NCBI GenBank assembly: GCA_018970325.1
Contig: JAGWWP010000024.1
Location: 1-36,040, forward strand
Length of the DNA stretch: 36,040 nt
Direction: 5' to 3'
From: Cyanobacteria bacterium REEB446
Lineage (GTDB): Bacteria; Cyanobacteriota; Vampirovibrionia; LMEP-6097
The notes beneath the pieces are model-generated. The model was not told the origin of the DNA. It worked only from the letters and a program-made list of their open reading frames with translations, and made no database searches. Made by a program: the position numbers and the translations under genes. Shown here piece by piece: positions 380-30,039 of this stretch; positions within the stretch are counted from its first letter, which is position 1, and every line of letters starts with the position of its first letter.

Positions 380-2527
380 TTACAGTATTCTACAGCCATT
401 TTCATCACATTGATAAGTTGGTTTAAATTCTAAAAGACTTTCTAATCCGACCAAAGCTTGACCATAACCCGTAGGGTACTGCTTCGTATTTGCGACCATA
501 ATCTTAATCATTGAATTTAACTTATCTAAATAAATATTCTTATTAGTTAGTTTAAACAACTCAATTAAATTACAGAAAGCGATAGAATTTCCAGAGGGTA
601 TAGCACCATCAAAAAATTCTTTATTTGCTAAAGGCAATTCCCGAGCTTCTTTATCAGCATAGAAAAAAGCACCATTGTGATCATCCCAGAATTTACGAAA
701 CATAATCTCCTGTGTATCTATCGCTATATTAATTAGTTTTTCAGTATCTAAGCACTGTACTCCAATTTCTGCGTTTTCGGCAACAGTGCTCTCTACAGCC
801 TCCGATGCTTTAATTAATTCTATTAAAGCAAAGATGAAAAAGCTGTAATCATTTATACATGAGATATTTGGCGAACTAATACCAAGACGTGATGATTTTA
901 ATAATTCACCATTAGGCTTGCGCATGATTTTTAAAAGTGAATCTGTAACTTTGAGAGCAAGATTTAAAAACTTAGTATCTTGAGTTGCCTGATAAGCTCT
1001 CGCTAAAGCTGCGACCATAAGTGAATTCCAATCAGTGAGTATCTTATCGTCTTTTAATGGATGGATTCTACCTTTACGATGTGCATAGAGCTTCTCCACT
1101 CTTGGTACTAAAAAATCATTTAAATCTTTTCGATGCAGAATATTTCTACCTGTTTTTTCCTTAGTGCTTTCATCTAAAAAATTCCCCTTTTCCTCTACCT
1201 GAAAGATTGTTACTATTAGGGTTAACTCATCTTTATTTAATATCTCTTTAAGCTCTTTCATCGTCCAAGTGTAGAACAATCCCTCTTCTCCCTCACTGTC
1301 AGCATCTTCAGCACTGAAGAAAAGATTTTCTGATGAAAGCATGTCTGTTACTAGATATTCATATATTTCATCCAAAACTCTTTTATAGACAGATATATTA
1401 TTTTTAAGTTTTTCCTGATTTAAATTCAGATCTTTTAAATTTATAGAGTTTTCAATCTTTTGAGAATAGAGTTTTTCTAAAACCAGCACGGTATCACTAT
1501 AAGCAAGCATAAGCGTAGCTTGGTCATATAGCATCTTCTCGAAATGTGGTAATAGCCACTCTCTATCTGTAGAATAGCGATGAAAGCCATAACCAAGCTG
1601 ATCAAAGACACCACCAAGACGAAACTGTGTCAGGCTTTTAAGCACCATATCAAGAGCAGTCGAAATTTTTTCCTTGGCTTCTTGAGGATACTGTTTTACA
1701 AGGCGTTCGTAATATTTTAAAAGAAAAGAATATACATGCGGACTAAAGAATTTAGGCGCTGGTCCAAAACCACCATATTTATTATCAAACTGGTGACTTA
1801 ACTGCATAAAAGCTTTATCTGAGATTTCTTGAATCTCATTACGAAAAGCTTCTGAGCTTTCATTTTTATCTAAATTAAATATCTCTTTGTCTATTTCAGA
1901 TACTAGCTCTGAACTACTGTCCTCACCTAAATGATACTTTCTATAATTAACACTAATTTTTTCTGCGGTAGCCTCTAGCTTCTCCTTATCGTTTAACCAC
2001 ATCTCACCAAGATGATGAGCGATTTGAATTAGCCCAGGCATCTCATAGCCATTAGGATAGAGTTTACTTAATTTAGGGAAATAAGTCCCTGCATAGAATA
2101 CATGCTTCTCTGGTGTAAGAAAAAGATTAAGAGGCCAGCCCCCTCTAGATATAAGCATTTGAGCTATACCCATATAAAGACTGTCTATGTCTGGTCTTTC
2201 CTCTCTATCGACTTTGATACAGATGAAATGTTGATTTAAAACCTTGGCTACATCTTCATCCTCAAAGGATTCATGCTCCATCACATGACACCAATGACAA
2301 GTCGAATAACCAATAGATAAAAATATAGCTTTATTTTCTACTTTAGCCTTAGCAAAAGCTGTTTCAGACCATGGATGCCAGTCTACTGGATTCGCCGCGT
2401 GCTGTAATAAATAAGGACTTTTTTCAAATACCAGCCTATTCCACTCATCACCACCATCTTCTGGAATTTTTTTTAAATCCTCGCCTTGAGGCAGATCTTG
2501 AAGTACTTTTTCTATGGTGTAATTCAT
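380..2527 (-). CDS. DUF255 / thioredoxin-fold and six-hairpin glycosidase-like protein (YyaL/SPATA20 family)
   Basis: 715 residues, the usual length of the DUF255 family. The N-terminal thioredoxin-like domain (about 30-190) contains [15 protein letters not shown], a CHWC pair at 77-80 and the family block [11 protein letters not shown]. The rest matches the alpha/alpha-barrel part, including [10 protein letters not shown] and [13 protein letters not shown]. Its cellular function is not established; a redox or N-acylglucosamine-epimerase-like role has been proposed for relatives. It lies 19 bp downstream of the asmA-like gene on the same strand, so the two are probably co-transcribed. Residues about 580-593 (ENAEIGV region) come from a short palindromic repeat inserted in frame at 751-790. 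The protein otherwise looks intact, ending in a Cys-containing tail (CDENGCRIL). Confidence 0.9.
751..790 (-). repeat. Short in-frame palindromic element inside the DUF255 gene
   Basis: The arms AGCACTGT (751-758) and ACAGTGCT (783-790) are exact complements. They enclose ACTCCAATTTCTGCGTTTTC (759-778), which is identical over 20 bp to 28891-28910 in the radical SAM gene. The flanking 5-mers ATCTA (746-750) and CTCTA (791-795) match at 4 of 5 positions, consistent with an aged target duplication. Element plus one flank is 45 bp, or 15 codons, so the frame is kept. It looks like a small derivative lacking the central core of the 121-bp copies. Confidence 0.75.
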
Positions 2528-6439: not shown

Positions 6440-6580
6440 TAGCTGTAATATGCCCTTTATGTTGAGCAATGGACCAACAACAGAGAGGGTTTAGGGGAAG
6501 CGCCAATAAAGAACCCAAAAAGCTCATCGCACACCCCCCGAAGGAACGTAAAAAAACGATTTTAGAGTATCGTTTTTTTA
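6440..6580 (+). ncRNA. Candidate structured small RNA ending in a terminator
   Basis: This gene-free stretch has a nested fold. TGAGC (6462-6466) pairs with GCTCA further right and encloses GGGTT pairing with AACCC. A G/C-rich patch follows, and then a hairpin ending in seven T residues (6550-6579). This is unlike the surrounding spacers. It does not carry the SRP RNA GGAAGGAAGC signature or tmRNA features that I would recognise. It could also be a leftover untranslated region or a decayed element. The 5' end is a guess. Confidence 0.3.
6550..6579. terminator. Rho-independent-type hairpin
   Basis: AAAAAAACGAT (6550-6560), an 8-nt loop, then ATCGTTTTTTT (6569-6579) form an 11-bp perfect stem whose 3' arm supplies the U-tract. 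Because the arms are A- and T-rich it could work in both directions. Confidence 0.65.
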
Positions 6581-6606: not shown

Positions 6607-6652
6607 ATAAACGAGAAGACCACTTAAGTTCTTAAGTGGTCTTCTCGTTTAT
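6607..6652. terminator. Perfect 22-bp inverted repeat, bidirectional terminator after tRNA-Ser
   Basis: Arms 6607-6628 and 6631-6652 are perfectly complementary with a 2-nt loop (TT); the inner part reads CCACTTAAG / CTTAAGTGG. It begins 6 bp past the 3' end of the minus-strand tRNA-Ser, the expected place for its terminator. The stem is unusually long. Confidence 0.7.
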
Positions 6653-14289: not shown

Positions 14290-15086
14290 TGTTAGGTATT
14301 TTTGTTACCGCTGCTTATCCCTCAGAAGAGGCTTGTATTCAGGCTTTAAAAATACTGCATGAAGAAAAGGTTTCTTTAATTGAGCTTGGCATACCTTTCT
14401 CTGACCCTCTTGCTGATGGCCCAGCAATTCAGAACGCGAGTTTTAAAGCTTTAGCTAATGGAATTAATATAGATAAAATTTTTGATCTTGTCGCTCAAGC
14501 TCGATCAGAAGCTGGTTTAGTAGACTCTTGTAATTATGGATTAAATAATATTATTTTCTTCACTTACTATAATCCTGTCTATGTCTATGGTATAGAGAAA
14601 TTAGCTCAAAAGTCCTCAGAGTATGGCATTAAAGGTTTACTAATTCCAGATCTACCAGTGGAAGAAGCTGAGACAGTTTCGAAAGTTTTAAAAAGTCATG
14701 GACTCACCTTAACCTTACTAGTAGCCATAACTAGTTCAGAGCAGCGAATTGAAAAAATTGTAGAGCTATCAGAACCATTTATATATTTAGTAAGCCGTAT
14801 TGGTATAACTGGCTCTGATAGTGATATCACGAAATGGCAAGGAGCTAACACCATTCTAAAACAGAAAATAGCCGAAATTCGCAAATATGCTCCAAATAAA
14901 CCTATCGGCTTAGGGTTCGGCATAGATAGTGCTGCTAAAGTACGCGACACTTTAGATTTAGGCGTAGAAATAGCCATTATCGGCACTAAAGCAATTCGTG
15001 TCTTAGAAGAAGATCAGAGCCATGATTTAGCAGTGTTTAGGGACTTTATACTATCGGTTAATATCTCTAAAATAGAGAACGTTTAG
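14289..15086 (+). CDS. trpA: Tryptophan synthase alpha chain
   Basis: 265 residues. The catalytic pair is present in LIELGIPFSDPLADGPAIQ: Glu32 and Asp43 correspond to Glu49 and Asp60 of the E. coli enzyme. Phosphate-binding segments YLVSRIGITGSDSD and GLGFGIDSAAKV are intact. The enzyme cleaves indole-3-glycerol phosphate to indole, which is passed to TrpB. The N-terminus is about 17 residues shorter than E. coli TrpA, so the first helix is missing; an in-frame stop at 14277-14279 rules out an upstream start. No other trp gene is in the window, and the gene is coupled to the preceding micro-gene. Confidence 0.93.
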   Translation: MLGIFVTAAYPSEEACIQALKILHEEKVSLIELGIPFSDPLADGPAIQNASFKALANGINIDKIFDLVAQARSEAGLVDSCNYGLNNIIFFTYYNPVYVYGIEKLAQKSSEYGIKGLLIPDLPVEEAETVSKVLKSHGLTLTLLVAITSSEQRIEKIVELSEPFIYLVSRIGITGSDSDITKWQGANTILKQKIAEIRKYAPNKPIGLGFGIDSAAKVRDTLDLGVEIAIIGTKAIRVLEEDQSHDLAVFRDFILSVNISKIENV

Positions 15087-15088
15087 AC

Positions 15089-15108
15089 GAAAACGCAGAA
15101 AATGGAGT
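15089..15108 (+). repeat. Intergenic remnant of the palindromic element
   Basis: GAAAACGCAGAAAATGGAGT matches the shared segment of the DUF255 and radical SAM copies at 19 of 20 positions. It begins 2 nt after the trpA stop codon, in the opposite orientation to the other copies. Possible arms AGAGAAC (about 15074-15080) and GGTCTCT (about 15117-15123) pair at 6 of 7 positions and would include the trpA end. Confidence 0.6.
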
Positions 15109-15122
15109 TGTGCAGCGGTCTC

Positions 15123-15971
15123 TTAAATGTCTAATCCAGCTGTGATATTTAGCTGCTGGCCAGTAATTCCTTTCGCTGGCTCAGAAAGTAAATAACTAAT
15201 AGCGTGTGCTATCTCTTCTGGCTCTATCCAGCGATTCTGTAAAGTCGCTCCGAGACTGTCTTTAATAACATCTTCATTAGGCATCTGATTTAACGCCATA
15301 TCAGTTCTCACCCAACCTGGACATATACTATTAACCGTAATTTTGTATTTGGAAAATTCCAATGCAAGGCTCTTTGCTAAAGCAATTAAAGCAGCTTTAC
15401 TTGCACTATAGGCTGGAGCATAAAGTTCACCAGCATAGGCACTGACTGATGAAATAAAAATAATTCGTGAATAGCTTTCTGGATTTAGTTTCACATAAGT
15501 TTTTAATAAGGGTAAAGCCGCCTTAACTAAATGAAAAGCACCATTTAAATTAACATCTAAAACCCTCTGCCAATCATTAAAACAGTATTCTTCAAAGCAT
15601 GAACTGTGATAAATACCAGCATTTACTATAAGTCCATAGAGGGACTGCTCGCAATCTTCAATTTCTGCGTTTTCATCGTCCTCATGATCCTCATGCACCC
15701 GCAGTACACTGCGGTCATTCGTCCTCCTCAGCCTTGAACTTGTACGACTGTGAGCAGTCCCTTCAAGATACTGCTCGCAATCTTCAATTTCTGCGTTTGA
15801 GAAATAATCTTGGACAGATTTTTCAGAACTCTGATCTAATTCTTGGGAACTCGGTGCGAAAACCTTATAATCAGACCGACTAAGCAAATAAGCGGCGGAC
15901 TTACCGATTCCTCGGGAGCCGCCGCTTATTAATATGTTTTTTTTAAACTTAGTTTTCTCTGAATCACTCAC
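15123..15971 (-). CDS. SDR-family oxidoreductase (FabG-like) carrying an in-frame repeat insertion
   Basis: 282 residues. The Rossmann motif ILISGGSRGIGKSAAYL, the NAG block (GLIVNAGIY), the active-site SSVSAYAGELYAPAYSASK with YxxxK, and the C-terminal GITGQQLNITAG are all present. The enzyme is an NADPH-type reductase or dehydrogenase similar to 3-oxoacyl-ACP reductase; the substrate is not certain. Residues about 59-109 are foreign: they are translated from the palindromic element and a second partial copy (15641-15798). They lie in the loop before the strand carrying NAG. Without them the protein is about 231 residues, close to a normal SDR, so the enzyme may well remain active. Confidence 0.88.
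   Translation of the reverse strand: MSDSEKTKFKKNILISGGSRGIGKSAAYLLSRSDYKVFAPSSQELDQSSEKSVQDYFSNAEIEDCEQYLEGTAHSRTSSRLRRTNDRSVLRVHEDHEDDENAEIEDCEQSLYGLIVNAGIYHSSCFEEYCFNDWQRVLDVNLNGAFHLVKAALPLLKTYVKLNPESYSRIIFISSVSAYAGELYAPAYSASKAALIALAKSLALEFSKYKITVNSICPGWVRTDMALNQMPNEDVIKDSLGATLQNRWIEPEEIAHAISYLLSEPAKGITGQQLNITAGLDI
15641..15761 (-). mobile_element. 121-bp palindromic element (copy A), in frame inside the SDR gene
   Basis: Outer arms GGGACTGCTC (15641-15650) and GAGCAGTCCC (15752-15761) are perfect complements. The centre carries the palindrome CCGCAGTACACTGCGG (15699-15714), with two copies of CATGAGGA beside it on the sense strand. The core matches copy B (28877-28997) almost base for base, but the arms do not. 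In the host frame it encodes RTSSRLRRTNDRSVLRVHED followed by an acidic stretch. No transposase is encoded, so it would have to be moved in trans. Confidence 0.85.
15770..15798 (-). repeat. 29-bp direct repeat of the element end
   Basis: The 29 bp at 15644-15672 recur exactly at 15770-15798, an offset of 126 bp (42 codons). This gives the duplicated peptide NAEIEDCEQ at both ends of the insert. It is either a second, truncated element that was the landing site, or a duplication made on insertion. Confidence 0.75.
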
Positions 15972-19909: not shown

Positions 19910-20060
19910 ACTCGTGTTCGAGTCACTTCGATCAAGTTTAATTTATTAAAATGGTGGACCCGAAGATGTGGATTCTTGACAAAGAATCCAGCAAAAAGAC
20001 TAACACTCGTGTTCGAGTCACTTCGATCAAGTTTAATTTATTAAAATGGTGGACCCGAAG
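19910..20060. repeat. 56-bp direct repeat containing the tRNA-Ala 3' end
   Basis: 19910-19965 and 20005-20060 are identical over 56 bp, offset by 95 bp. The right copy includes the last 14 nt of the tRNA-Ala gene plus 42 bp beyond it, so the left copy carries a spare tRNA 3' end (19952-19965). Both also contain GTGTTCGAGTCACTTCG, a 16-of-17 inverted copy of the tRNA T-arm (20056-20072). Between the copies, TGGATTCTT / AAGAATCCA (19969-19990) is a hairpin. Confidence 0.85.
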
Positions 20061-27809: not shown

Positions 27810-29594
27810 TCACCCAGCCTTCCCCTCAGCCTCCAAAGCATGCTTCCCAAGCATAGCCACCTGCCCCTCACTCATTAAATACTGCCAAGGATAACGCAGC
27901 GGCACAGAAATTTCAGCATCCTGCTTTTCCCCCCAATCCTTAAACACAAAATACTCAAAAGCCTCTTTAGAAATAGCCTTCTTATAATCCCCATAACTAG
28001 GCTCATCACCTAACTCTGTTAATTCTAAAAACATCTTACTAAGCGATCTATCGCCACGTGAAATTAAAGCTTGAATCTGTGTCCACTTATAGCTTTCAGG
28101 GCGCACCTCTATGCCAGCAGGTCTTAGGGCTTTAGTAATTTTTTGTAATTTTTTTTCGCTACTCGTATCTATCCCAAAGTTTTGAAAAGGAGTCTGTGCC
28201 TTCGGTGTAAAAATGCTACAGCCCCAAGTAATTTTCAGTCTAGAGAATGATTTTTTCAGTCTTTTTAAAAGATCTATAGTAGCTTCGATATCAGCATCTG
28301 TTTCATAGGGCATACCGACCATGCCATAAAGTTTTACCGCTTTAATACCGCCATTCAGAGCGTTCTCACAGGCAGTAAAAATCTCAGCTTCGCTAAGCTT
28401 TTTATTCATAATCTCTCTTAATCTCTCTGAGCCACTTTCGATAGCGATAGTCATACTCTTCACCCCAAGCTCTACTAAAAGTTCTGCCATCTCTAAAGTC
28501 ACAGTACCAGCACGCATAGAAGCGACTTGTGCCTGAGGCTTTTTCGGGTGAGCGACTAAATATTTTAAAAGCTCTATAAATTCTGGATGCTGAGTTACAC
28601 TAGGTCCTAAAAGACCTATCTTATTGGTAAATTTTAAAAGATACTCGACATTCGGAATTAAAACACTGTTAATATCTGGCTTCCTAAAAGGCAGCGTAAG
28701 ATAGCTAGCTAAGCAGAATCTACACATCTCAGGACAGCTTCTCACCACCTCTAAAAGAGCTGTATCTTCCCAATACGCATCTGGAGCTATAACCGAACTA
28801 TGAGCTAACTGCTCGGGCTTACTTTTTTCACGCTCTATTGCTTTATAATTTTGCGGAGAATATTTAACTACACCTTGGGCGTGTAGCGAAACTCCAATTT
28901 CTGCGTTTTCGTCGTCCTCATGATCCTCATGTACCCGCAGTACACTGCGGTCATTCGTCCTCCTCAGCCTTGAACTTGTTCGTTTGGCTACACGCCCACC
29001 TTGTGCACCCGCCTTATTCACTGAAACTAAAATCGCTTCATATAAAGAAGGTACATAAATTCCTGGTATCTCTTCAAAGCAGCTTAGCTTATCACCACGA
29101 GAGCTATCACTAAATCCAAAAAATTTCTCAGTCTGCGACACTATCCCATCTATATTATTTTCACAATCGCCTATAGTAATAAAATCAAAAAAATCAGCCC
29201 AAGGCTCAGGATTCGCCGTAAGAACAGGACCCCCACCATAAACTAAAGGATGAGACATATCTCTATCTTTAGATAGCAGTGGAATATTTAAATCCTCTAG
29301 AGTTTTAATAATATTAATAAAATCCAGTTCCCAAGAGACAGAGAAACTTACTAAATGAATATCACGCGGAAACTTTTCATAGAAATTCGTGAAATATCTA
29401 TAAGTAGAAGTTTTCTCATGCTCAGAAAAAAGTTTAAAAACTAACTGATAGCCAAGGCTCGCCATGCCGACTTCATAACTATTGGGGAAACAGTTAAGTA
29501 CATTAATATATCCTCCCTGCTTTCTTGTGAATAGAAATATCTCTTTTCTTAAAGCCTCTTGAAAATTAATTGGTTTAGTAGCACTATCCATCAA
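27810..29594 (-). CDS. B12-binding-domain radical SAM protein (TIGR03960-like)
   Basis: 594 residues. The N-terminal B12-binding-like region (about 1-180) contains NCFPNSYEVGMASLGYQL and PLVYGGGPVLTANPEPWADF. The radical SAM [4Fe-4S] motif CxxxCxxC is in VVRSCPEMCRFCLASY. The family is widespread but of unknown substrate; related proteins often sit near rRNA or tRNA modification genes. Residues about 199-238 are translated from the 121-bp palindromic element (28877-28997), placed in the linker between the two domains, so function may survive. It overlaps the end of aroQ by 11 bp. Confidence 0.87.
   Translation of the reverse strand: MMDSATKPINFQEALRKEIFLFTRKQGGYINVLNCFPNSYEVGMASLGYQLVFKLFSEHEKTSTYRYFTNFYEKFPRDIHLVSFSVSWELDFINIIKTLEDLNIPLLSKDRDMSHPLVYGGGPVLTANPEPWADFFDFITIGDCENNIDGIVSQTEKFFGFSDSSRGDKLSCFEEIPGIYVPSLYEAILVSVNKAGAQGGRVAKRTSSRLRRTNDRSVLRVHEDHEDDENAEIGVSLHAQGVVKYSPQNYKAIEREKSKPEQLAHSSVIAPDAYWEDTALLEVVRSCPEMCRFCLASYLTLPFRKPDINSVLIPNVEYLLKFTNKIGLLGPSVTQHPEFIELLKYLVAHPKKPQAQVASMRAGTVTLEMAELLVELGVKSMTIAIESGSERLREIMNKKLSEAEIFTACENALNGGIKAVKLYGMVGMPYETDADIEATIDLLKRLKKSFSRLKITWGCSIFTPKAQTPFQNFGIDTSSEKKLQKITKALRPAGIEVRPESYKWTQIQALISRGDRSLSKMFLELTELGDEPSYGDYKKAISKEAFEYFVFKDWGEKQDAEISVPLRYPWQYLMSEGQVAMLGKHALEAEGKAG
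28877..28997 (-). mobile_element. 121-bp palindromic element (copy B), in frame inside the radical SAM gene
   Basis: Arms GGGCGTGTAGCGAAAC (28877-28892) and GTTTGGCTACACGCCC (28982-28997) pair with one mismatch. The 5-bp flanks are identical: ACCTT at 28872-28876 and ACCTT at 28998-29002, the mark of a target-site duplication. Element plus one flank is 126 bp (42 codons). The central palindrome CCGCAGTACACTGCGG is at 28935-28950. The core encodes the same peptide as copy A in the same frame. Confidence 0.88.
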
Positions 29595-30039
29595 TAAAAT
29601 ATTTCAAAGCAAGGATATAACTTTTAGCAGCGAAGCCCGATATCTGCCCCTTACAGACAGCTGCTATCATCGAGGTGTGTCTAAAATTTTCTCTTGCATG
29701 AATATTAGATAAATGTACTTCTATCACGGGAACTTTTATAGATGAAATAGCGTCTCTAAGAGCAATACTCGTATGTGTATAAGCACCAGCATTCAGAATG
29801 ATACCTTTCATCTGCTGAGACTGCTCGCAATCTTCAACTTCTGCGTTTCCAGCTTCTTGAATTTTAGAAACTAATTCCCCCTCGATATTCGACTGAAATG
29901 TTTCTATGTCTAAATTAGCTGTAGCCGCAAGCTTTATAAGCTGCTGATTAATATCAAGCAAGGTCTCTGAGCCATAATATTCTGGCTCTCTCTTGCCAAG
30001 CATATTTAAATTCGGACCATGAATAACTAGAATTTTCAT
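29584..30039 (-). CDS. aroQ: Type II 3-dehydroquinate dehydratase
   Basis: 151 residues. The family opening ILVIHGPNLNMLGKREPEYYG contains the catalytic Arg and Tyr. INAG-type block IILNAGAYTHTSIALRDAI and the active-site EVHLSNIHARENFRHTS are intact. It dehydrates 3-dehydroquinate in the shikimate pathway and forms a dodecamer in relatives. Residues about 64-76 (GNAEVEDCEQSQQ) come from a short copy of the palindromic element inserted before the strand leading to the NAG-like loop, a position that tolerates length changes. The radical SAM gene follows with an 11-bp overlap. Confidence 0.93.
   Translation of the reverse strand: MKILVIHGPNLNMLGKREPEYYGSETLLDINQQLIKLAATANLDIETFQSNIEGELVSKIQEAGNAEVEDCEQSQQMKGIILNAGAYTHTSIALRDAISSIKVPVIEVHLSNIHARENFRHTSMIAAVCKGQISGFAAKSYILALKYFIDG
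29820..29848 (-). repeat. Short palindromic-element derivative in aroQ
   Basis: The 29 bp match the repeat at 15644-15672 in 28 of 29 positions (one A to C change), giving NAEVEDCEQ instead of NAEIEDCEQ in the same frame. Flanking arms are weak (GCTG / CAGC), suggesting an old or trimmed copy. Confidence 0.7.

Follow-up and report, generated by a model that had tools for sequence, protein, structure and literature searches.

Two copies of one element in unrelated genes

Two unrelated enzyme genes of a cyanobacterial genome share a 121-bp segment that is read in frame in both, and the question raised by this locus is what that segment is and how it came to lie there. The window, i.e. the whole stretch of 36,040 nucleotides that was analysed, is one contig from an assembly of 2.25 Mb with 93% completeness (G000, the window's own genome). 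The host, a non-photosynthetic relative of cyanobacteria, belongs to Caenarcaniphilales, Cyanobacteriota, and lies outside Enterobacterales and Vibrionaceae; it is also not Rickettsia, as a reading made from the sequence alone (the sequence-only reading) had argued from gene content. The named relatives in which the element peptide was found are both Caenarcaniphilales/Melainabacteria MAGs of Cyanobacteriota. The features identified in the window are listed below.

15641 to 15761, minus strand: copy 1 of the complete 121-bp element, lying in frame within the SDR gene (ORF 15123-15971); arms GGGACTGCTCACAGTC / GATTGCGAGCAGTCCC
28877 to 28997, minus strand: copy 2 of the complete 121-bp element, lying in frame within the radical SAM gene (ORF 27810-29594); arms GGGCGTGTAGCCAAAC / GTTTCGCTACACGCCC
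28872 to 28876, no strand: first copy of the 5-bp target-site duplication ACCTT flanking copy 2
28998 to 29002, no strand: second copy of the 5-bp target-site duplication ACCTT flanking copy 2
15770 to 15801, minus strand: 5'-truncated copy encoding NAEIEDCEQ, immediately upstream of copy 1 within the SDR ORF
29819 to 29850, minus strand: 5'-truncated copy within the aroQ-type gene 29584-30039, read in frame as GNAEVEDCEQSQ
759 to 779, minus strand: 5'-truncated copy within the thioredoxin-domain protein gene 380-2527, read in frame as ENAEIGV
15086 to 15122, plus strand: 5'-truncated copy with arms of a different subfamily (...GTTGTGCAGCGGTCTC), flanked by the 3' ends of the trpA and SDR genes

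Both full copies were present where the sequence-only reading had placed them, each exactly 121 bp long and on the minus strand. The almost identical core of about 85 bp that it described was found as a 94-bp stretch in common at 95% identity, and its claim of a single reading frame in the SDR and radical SAM genes was borne out by the shared peptide RTSSRLRRTNDRSVLRVHEDHEDDENAEI. Copy 2 is located between the Radical_SAM_N2 and Radical_SAM domains. The segment of copy 1 is absent from PDB and Pfam SDR homologues, and the possibility that the core is a normal protein segment in orthologues of distant taxa was checked and did not hold. Two congeners carry the same insert at the same position in the SDR gene, and an identical copy of the second element occurs at the same position in L118. 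The ACCTT duplication is exact and is accompanied by the family-wide statistics given below. The four 5'-truncated copies are additions to the earlier account; the arrangement of the one upstream of copy 1 is repeated in congeners.

Copies inside genes

A total of 41 full 121-bp copies were identified in G000, with a core of 86 bp in 40 of them, besides more than 200 truncated remnants; these counts rest on searches and on the sequence stretches around the matches. The in-frame inserts in "at least two" enzymes are therefore real but understated, since the copies number dozens, and about one-third of the full ones are intergenic. Local duplication alone was rejected as their origin, as copies occur throughout the genome and in congeners.

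Analysis of the full copies revealed that 28 of 41 lie in long ORFs, all 28 in sense orientation and all 28 in a single stop-free sense frame. No antisense genic full copy was found, though many copies also have an open antisense frame. Stops or frameshifts occur in five of 13 intergenic full copies vs none of 28 genic ones (p=0.0017). The host genes identified with Pfam include GMP synthase (guaA), a RadA-type protein, GltX, ArgJ, RibD, PdxA, TsaE and signal peptidase, in addition to the SDR and radical SAM genes, and the genomes G006, G047, G025 and G321 likewise contain genic in-frame copies. Insertion in many unrelated genes, in frame and in one reading frame, is the behaviour of Rickettsia palindromic elements (RPEs), and the likeness to these mobile palindromes drawn from the sequence alone proved sound.

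In GltX the match to solved structures ends at residue 84 and restarts at residue 132, the insert occupying residues 88-129. AlphaFold models of SDR and GltX with their inserts had mean pLDDT values of 34 and 30 and were uninformative, with only two to three sequences as input. We infer that the insert residues are translated and tolerated by the host proteins. It is very improbable that the insert is missing from the finished protein, either bypassed during translation or excised in the manner of an intron. The presence of insertions in conserved enzymes and the strong hairpin in the mRNA speak for such a loss, but skipping would not require that every genic copy keep a frame without stops while five of the 13 others lost it, and no Rfam RNA family matched the element.

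Insertion and target-site duplication

Among 106 distinct copies a 5-bp flanking duplication is exact in 27, vs 1.1 expected, and another 25 match at four of five positions; duplication lengths from 2 to 11 bp other than 5 are all at chance. Copies in G004 also possess 5-bp duplications. Comparison with a congener revealed pairs of empty and filled sites (L033/L169, L026/L162 and window position 6567 vs L160), and in L033/L169 the orthologous empty site holds the target once. Since 121 bp and 5 bp add up to 126 bp, insertion keeps the reading frame and adds 42 codons. We propose that conserved genes tolerate the insertions because 126 is divisible by three and the element has a sense frame free of stops.

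In an intergenic part of the window (6607-6652), two 22-bp arms around a 2-bp loop form a perfect inverted repeat, which adjoins a site filled by a full element in a congener.

Hairpin structure and covariation

The sequence-only reading described a central palindrome; one is present, but this description was too small, as all 121 bp of copies 1 and 2 fold as one hairpin (z-scores -5.3 and -5.8). Folding over the whole length of a palindrome of about 125 bp is a property of ERIC/IRU repeats. The arms are 16 bp long and variable between copies, yet still complementary. Across 46 copies, 95.2% of cells in the hairpin are paired vs 85.1% in shuffled sets, 15 of 16 terminal arm pairs change on both sides, and compensated cells number 165 vs 39.9 shuffled. 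In a broad alignment of 55 copies from many genera, which had been fitted to a covariance model, 38 of 40 pairs covary, including single pairs between tandem G-A mismatches. The conserved parts are the internal loops (tandem G-A pairs) and the tip, CCG[CG]AGY[GT]TAC-loop-GTA[CA][AG]TGAGGA. On the coding-sense strand G-U pairs outnumber A-C pairs by 72 vs 12 in the broad set, 19 vs 2 in the other class and 65 vs 35 in the genus, 17 of the latter 35 coming from one fixed site. This excess fits folding of the coding-sense (+) strand, with mutational strand bias as the alternative. The 5' half also has a CUGANGA motif resembling that of a hammerhead, a reading that was dropped as the stems do not fit.

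At fixed orthologous sites the elements differ by 1.3% and the flanks by 5.4%, and five arm-pair changes are uncompensated with none compensated. A strongly divergent orthologous pair (L032/L128), which the flank filter dropped from this count, has compensated arm differences at one site. The uncompensated changes suggest that the demand for pairing acts mainly during the mobile phase, and they do not support in-place arm repair by template switching.

The low divergence at fixed sites and the very strongly conserved structure are also what would be expected if the hairpin were a host-selected RNA element, acting in mRNA processing or stability and kept by selection in place. ERIC affects mRNA stability (PMC2229807, PMC10969869), and a role in processing or stability has been proposed for ERIC in Yersinia. 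Selection in place is nevertheless unlikely, given that arm changes at fixed sites are uncompensated, that intergenic copies show no sense orientation relative to neighbouring genes, and that copy number and sites differ between congeners.

Truncated copies and decay

Counts of terminal motifs in G000 gave 282 for the 3' end and 67 for the 5' motif, vs 2 and 0 for the reversed controls; two congeners gave 240/58 and 138/31. The remnants mostly lack the 5' part, and 40 of 58 inspected lie in frame in long ORFs. In L019/L143 and L109/L096 a relative has a full copy where the G000 copy is truncated, with microhomology at the deletion; because the relatives hold full copies there, truncation occurred by deletion at these sites. 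No flanking duplication was seen in the truncated copies checked by eye. Tandems of a truncated and a full copy in a 126-bp register show units gained and lost between species (L028/L171, L036/L135 and L004/L175).

The predominance of 3' ends over 5' ends, about fourfold in all three congeneric genomes (G000, G001 and G002) and at coding and intergenic sites alike, would also follow from movement via an RNA copy by target-primed reverse transcription, in which the 5'-truncated copies are truncated insertions and not decayed ones; that the folded strand appears to be the + strand agrees with this route. We regard it as quite unlikely, as the RVT_1 domain is absent from the genome, the truncated sites compared above are full in relatives with microhomology at the deletion, and the truncated copies inspected lack a flanking duplication.

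Search for a mobilising enzyme

The domains RVT_1, Y1_Tnp and rve, the families searched, were all absent from the 93%-complete G000 assembly. The Y1 REP-associated transposase expected in the genome for a REP/RAYT system is thus lacking from G000. Conserved terminal repeats matching an autonomous transposon, expected for a DDE-mobilised MITE, were not found, the termini of the element being variable and covarying; the fixed length of the target-site duplication, 5 bp, is as in such MITEs. No autonomous version was present at the 5'-only sites examined. One candidate span for an autonomous copy between split ends was rejected, as it consists of ordinary host genes and has no matching duplication.

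Relationship to ERIC/IRU repeats

ERIC (enterobacterial repetitive intergenic consensus) repeats of gut bacteria such as E. coli, on record since 1990-91, are a common tool in strain typing. We know of no account of their origin or of their mobilising enzyme. A pattern search of viral contigs found prophages with a related repeat that is frequent in enterobacterial plasmids, and this led to ERIC. Three covariance models were then compared: R1, based on the genus; R2, from Cyanobacteriota copies only, without ERIC; and R3, from five ERICs. With R2, an ERIC on a Pantoea plasmid was matched over its full length (1503-1625, E=1.5e-8; BLAST match 1501-1626) and one in Rahnella with E=6e-4, the E-values of these models being rough owing to short calibrations; this search gave no further match within its 55 kb, including 49 kb of E. 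coli K-12. In total R2 matched four of the five ERICs at their exact ends, the one missed being a rearranged copy. The best matches of R3 were two Cyanobacteriota copies in G005, with exact ends and rough E-values of 9e-5 and 3e-4, followed by an E. coli palindrome (E=0.007). Shared sequence and structure beyond hairpin shape were hence found in both directions, through R2 and R3.

No direct match joins the window copies to ERIC. Because R3 finds no window copy and R1 finds no ERIC, the link is transitive, via intermediates, and in that form it is good. Structure-based comparison therefore revises the statement of the sequence-only reading that the element belongs to no family it recognised as described.

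The element resembles ERIC/IRU (126-127 bp) in length, full-length hairpin and orientation, and the series AAGGC ... GGAG-stem-GTA...TGA ... AACGCAG is conserved at the same structural places. It differs in its Cyanobacteriota host, its 5-bp duplication and its far more variable arms; furthermore, ERIC is mainly intergenic, whereas two-thirds of the full copies here are genic. Reviews describe ERIC as a MITE of which some copies lie in frame within genes (PMC2229807, PMC10969869), and its listed hosts are Enterobacteriaceae and Vibrionaceae (PMC10969869).

Another palindromic repeat of about 124 bp (...CCGCAGCGTACACGCAGTACGTGAGG...; L288-L295) is common in Enterobacterales plasmids and prophages, with Salmonella, Escherichia and Yersinia records; R2 matched it at about 1e-5, and it is probably a further ERIC-like family.

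Distribution and other palindromic systems

R1 matched copies in each of the five genera of the family and, outside it, in two further families of the class and one further class of the phylum. Hairpins in general do not match R1, because only four of 386 phylum genomes were matched. Copies from the other genera, families and class have similar folds, z ranging from about -3 to -11. The window-type sequence was absent from the viral contigs, phages and plasmids searched, and a literature search by words of the element sequence gave nothing relevant.

Several described palindromes are comparable in part. YPAL / RU-2, a Yersinia palindromic sequence, is likewise a mobile palindrome with an open reading frame and filled and empty sites, but is 168 bp long with internal inverted repeats and duplications of 3-26 bp (PMC2229807). 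PARCEL is also a protein-coding palindromic sequence in several taxa, but consists of tandem 25-residue repeats in ORFs that are often membrane-linked and is not dispersed in conserved enzymes (PMC2996958). In mitochondria of Nematomorpha, inverted repeats are likewise retained within protein-coding genes, but both of their arms encode conserved host residues and there is no dispersed element (PMC6649704).

The palindromes of Rickettsia and Wolbachia (RPE/WPE) are similar in being 100-150 bp long, in frame in unrelated protein genes and translated to a conserved peptide. The target duplication of RPEs is listed as unknown (PMC2229807). A family that is a true relative of RPE/WPE rather than of ERIC would account for the like size and hairpin shape and for insertion into genes in frame with a conserved peptide (PMC10969869, PMC3767692). 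Such kinship is improbable, as the structural match found was to ERIC; the likeness to RPE/WPE, which belong to another phylum, is one of described features.

Proposed origin and spread of the element

Overall, our analysis suggests that the 121-bp element is probably a mobile palindrome, non-autonomous and distantly placed among the ERIC/IRU-type hairpins, that is recognised as a folded single strand. The best reading of the family is a new ERIC-type branch that, in this genus, inserts inside proteins as RPEs do. The form recognised would be one folded strand, ssDNA or RNA, of which a putative trans-acting enzyme would read the conserved internal loops and the tip. The arms would need only to pair and so could drift by compensated change between mobile lineages. 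Insertion would produce the 5-bp staggered duplication and, in the right phase and orientation, would leave the gene readable with 42 extra residues. Copies would later decay through deletions that keep the frame and mostly remove the 5' part, or recombination would add and remove 126-bp units.

It is an evenly balanced question whether ERIC is one branch of ancient, bacteria-wide mobile hairpins that are defined by structure and moved by an enzyme acting on a folded single strand, the Caenarcaniphilales branch being protein-invading with a length and duplication that are frame-neutral. A superfamily reaching Cyanobacteriota would separate the conserved parts (tip and tandem G-A loops) from those that need only pair, and would narrow the search for the enzyme. 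The element also provides a second bacterial lineage, distant from Rickettsia, in which many conserved proteins gain residues from a mobile palindrome.

Additional observations

Several copies carry in their hairpin tip a second palindrome of about 76-78 bp (ATTTCCAGCGATGCC...GGAAATACAAGCTTGATTTATCAAGCTT), which apparently entered at a TA and forms its own covarying mini-hairpin. Its carriers in G000 are L098, L099, L100, L101, L104, L111 and L114, with L111 vs L151/L173 as the comparison; it may travel together with its host element.

Some copies supply gene ends. A 5'-half remnant in L108 (G000 C42, near 23600, minus strand) gives AGGAGG and the ATG opening a dethiobiotin-synthase-like ORF (MIFITATDTGVGKTFF...); here the element may have been exapted as a translation start. 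In L020 (G000 C22) the stop codon of a cytochrome-like gene comes from an antisense copy at the gene end. Many intergenic copies are antisense and lie at most 15 bp from the 3' end of a gene.

Between its acetyl-CoA-synthetase-like and UbiA-like genes the window also contains a 56-bp perfect direct repeat (19910-20060), whose two copies lie 95 bp apart.
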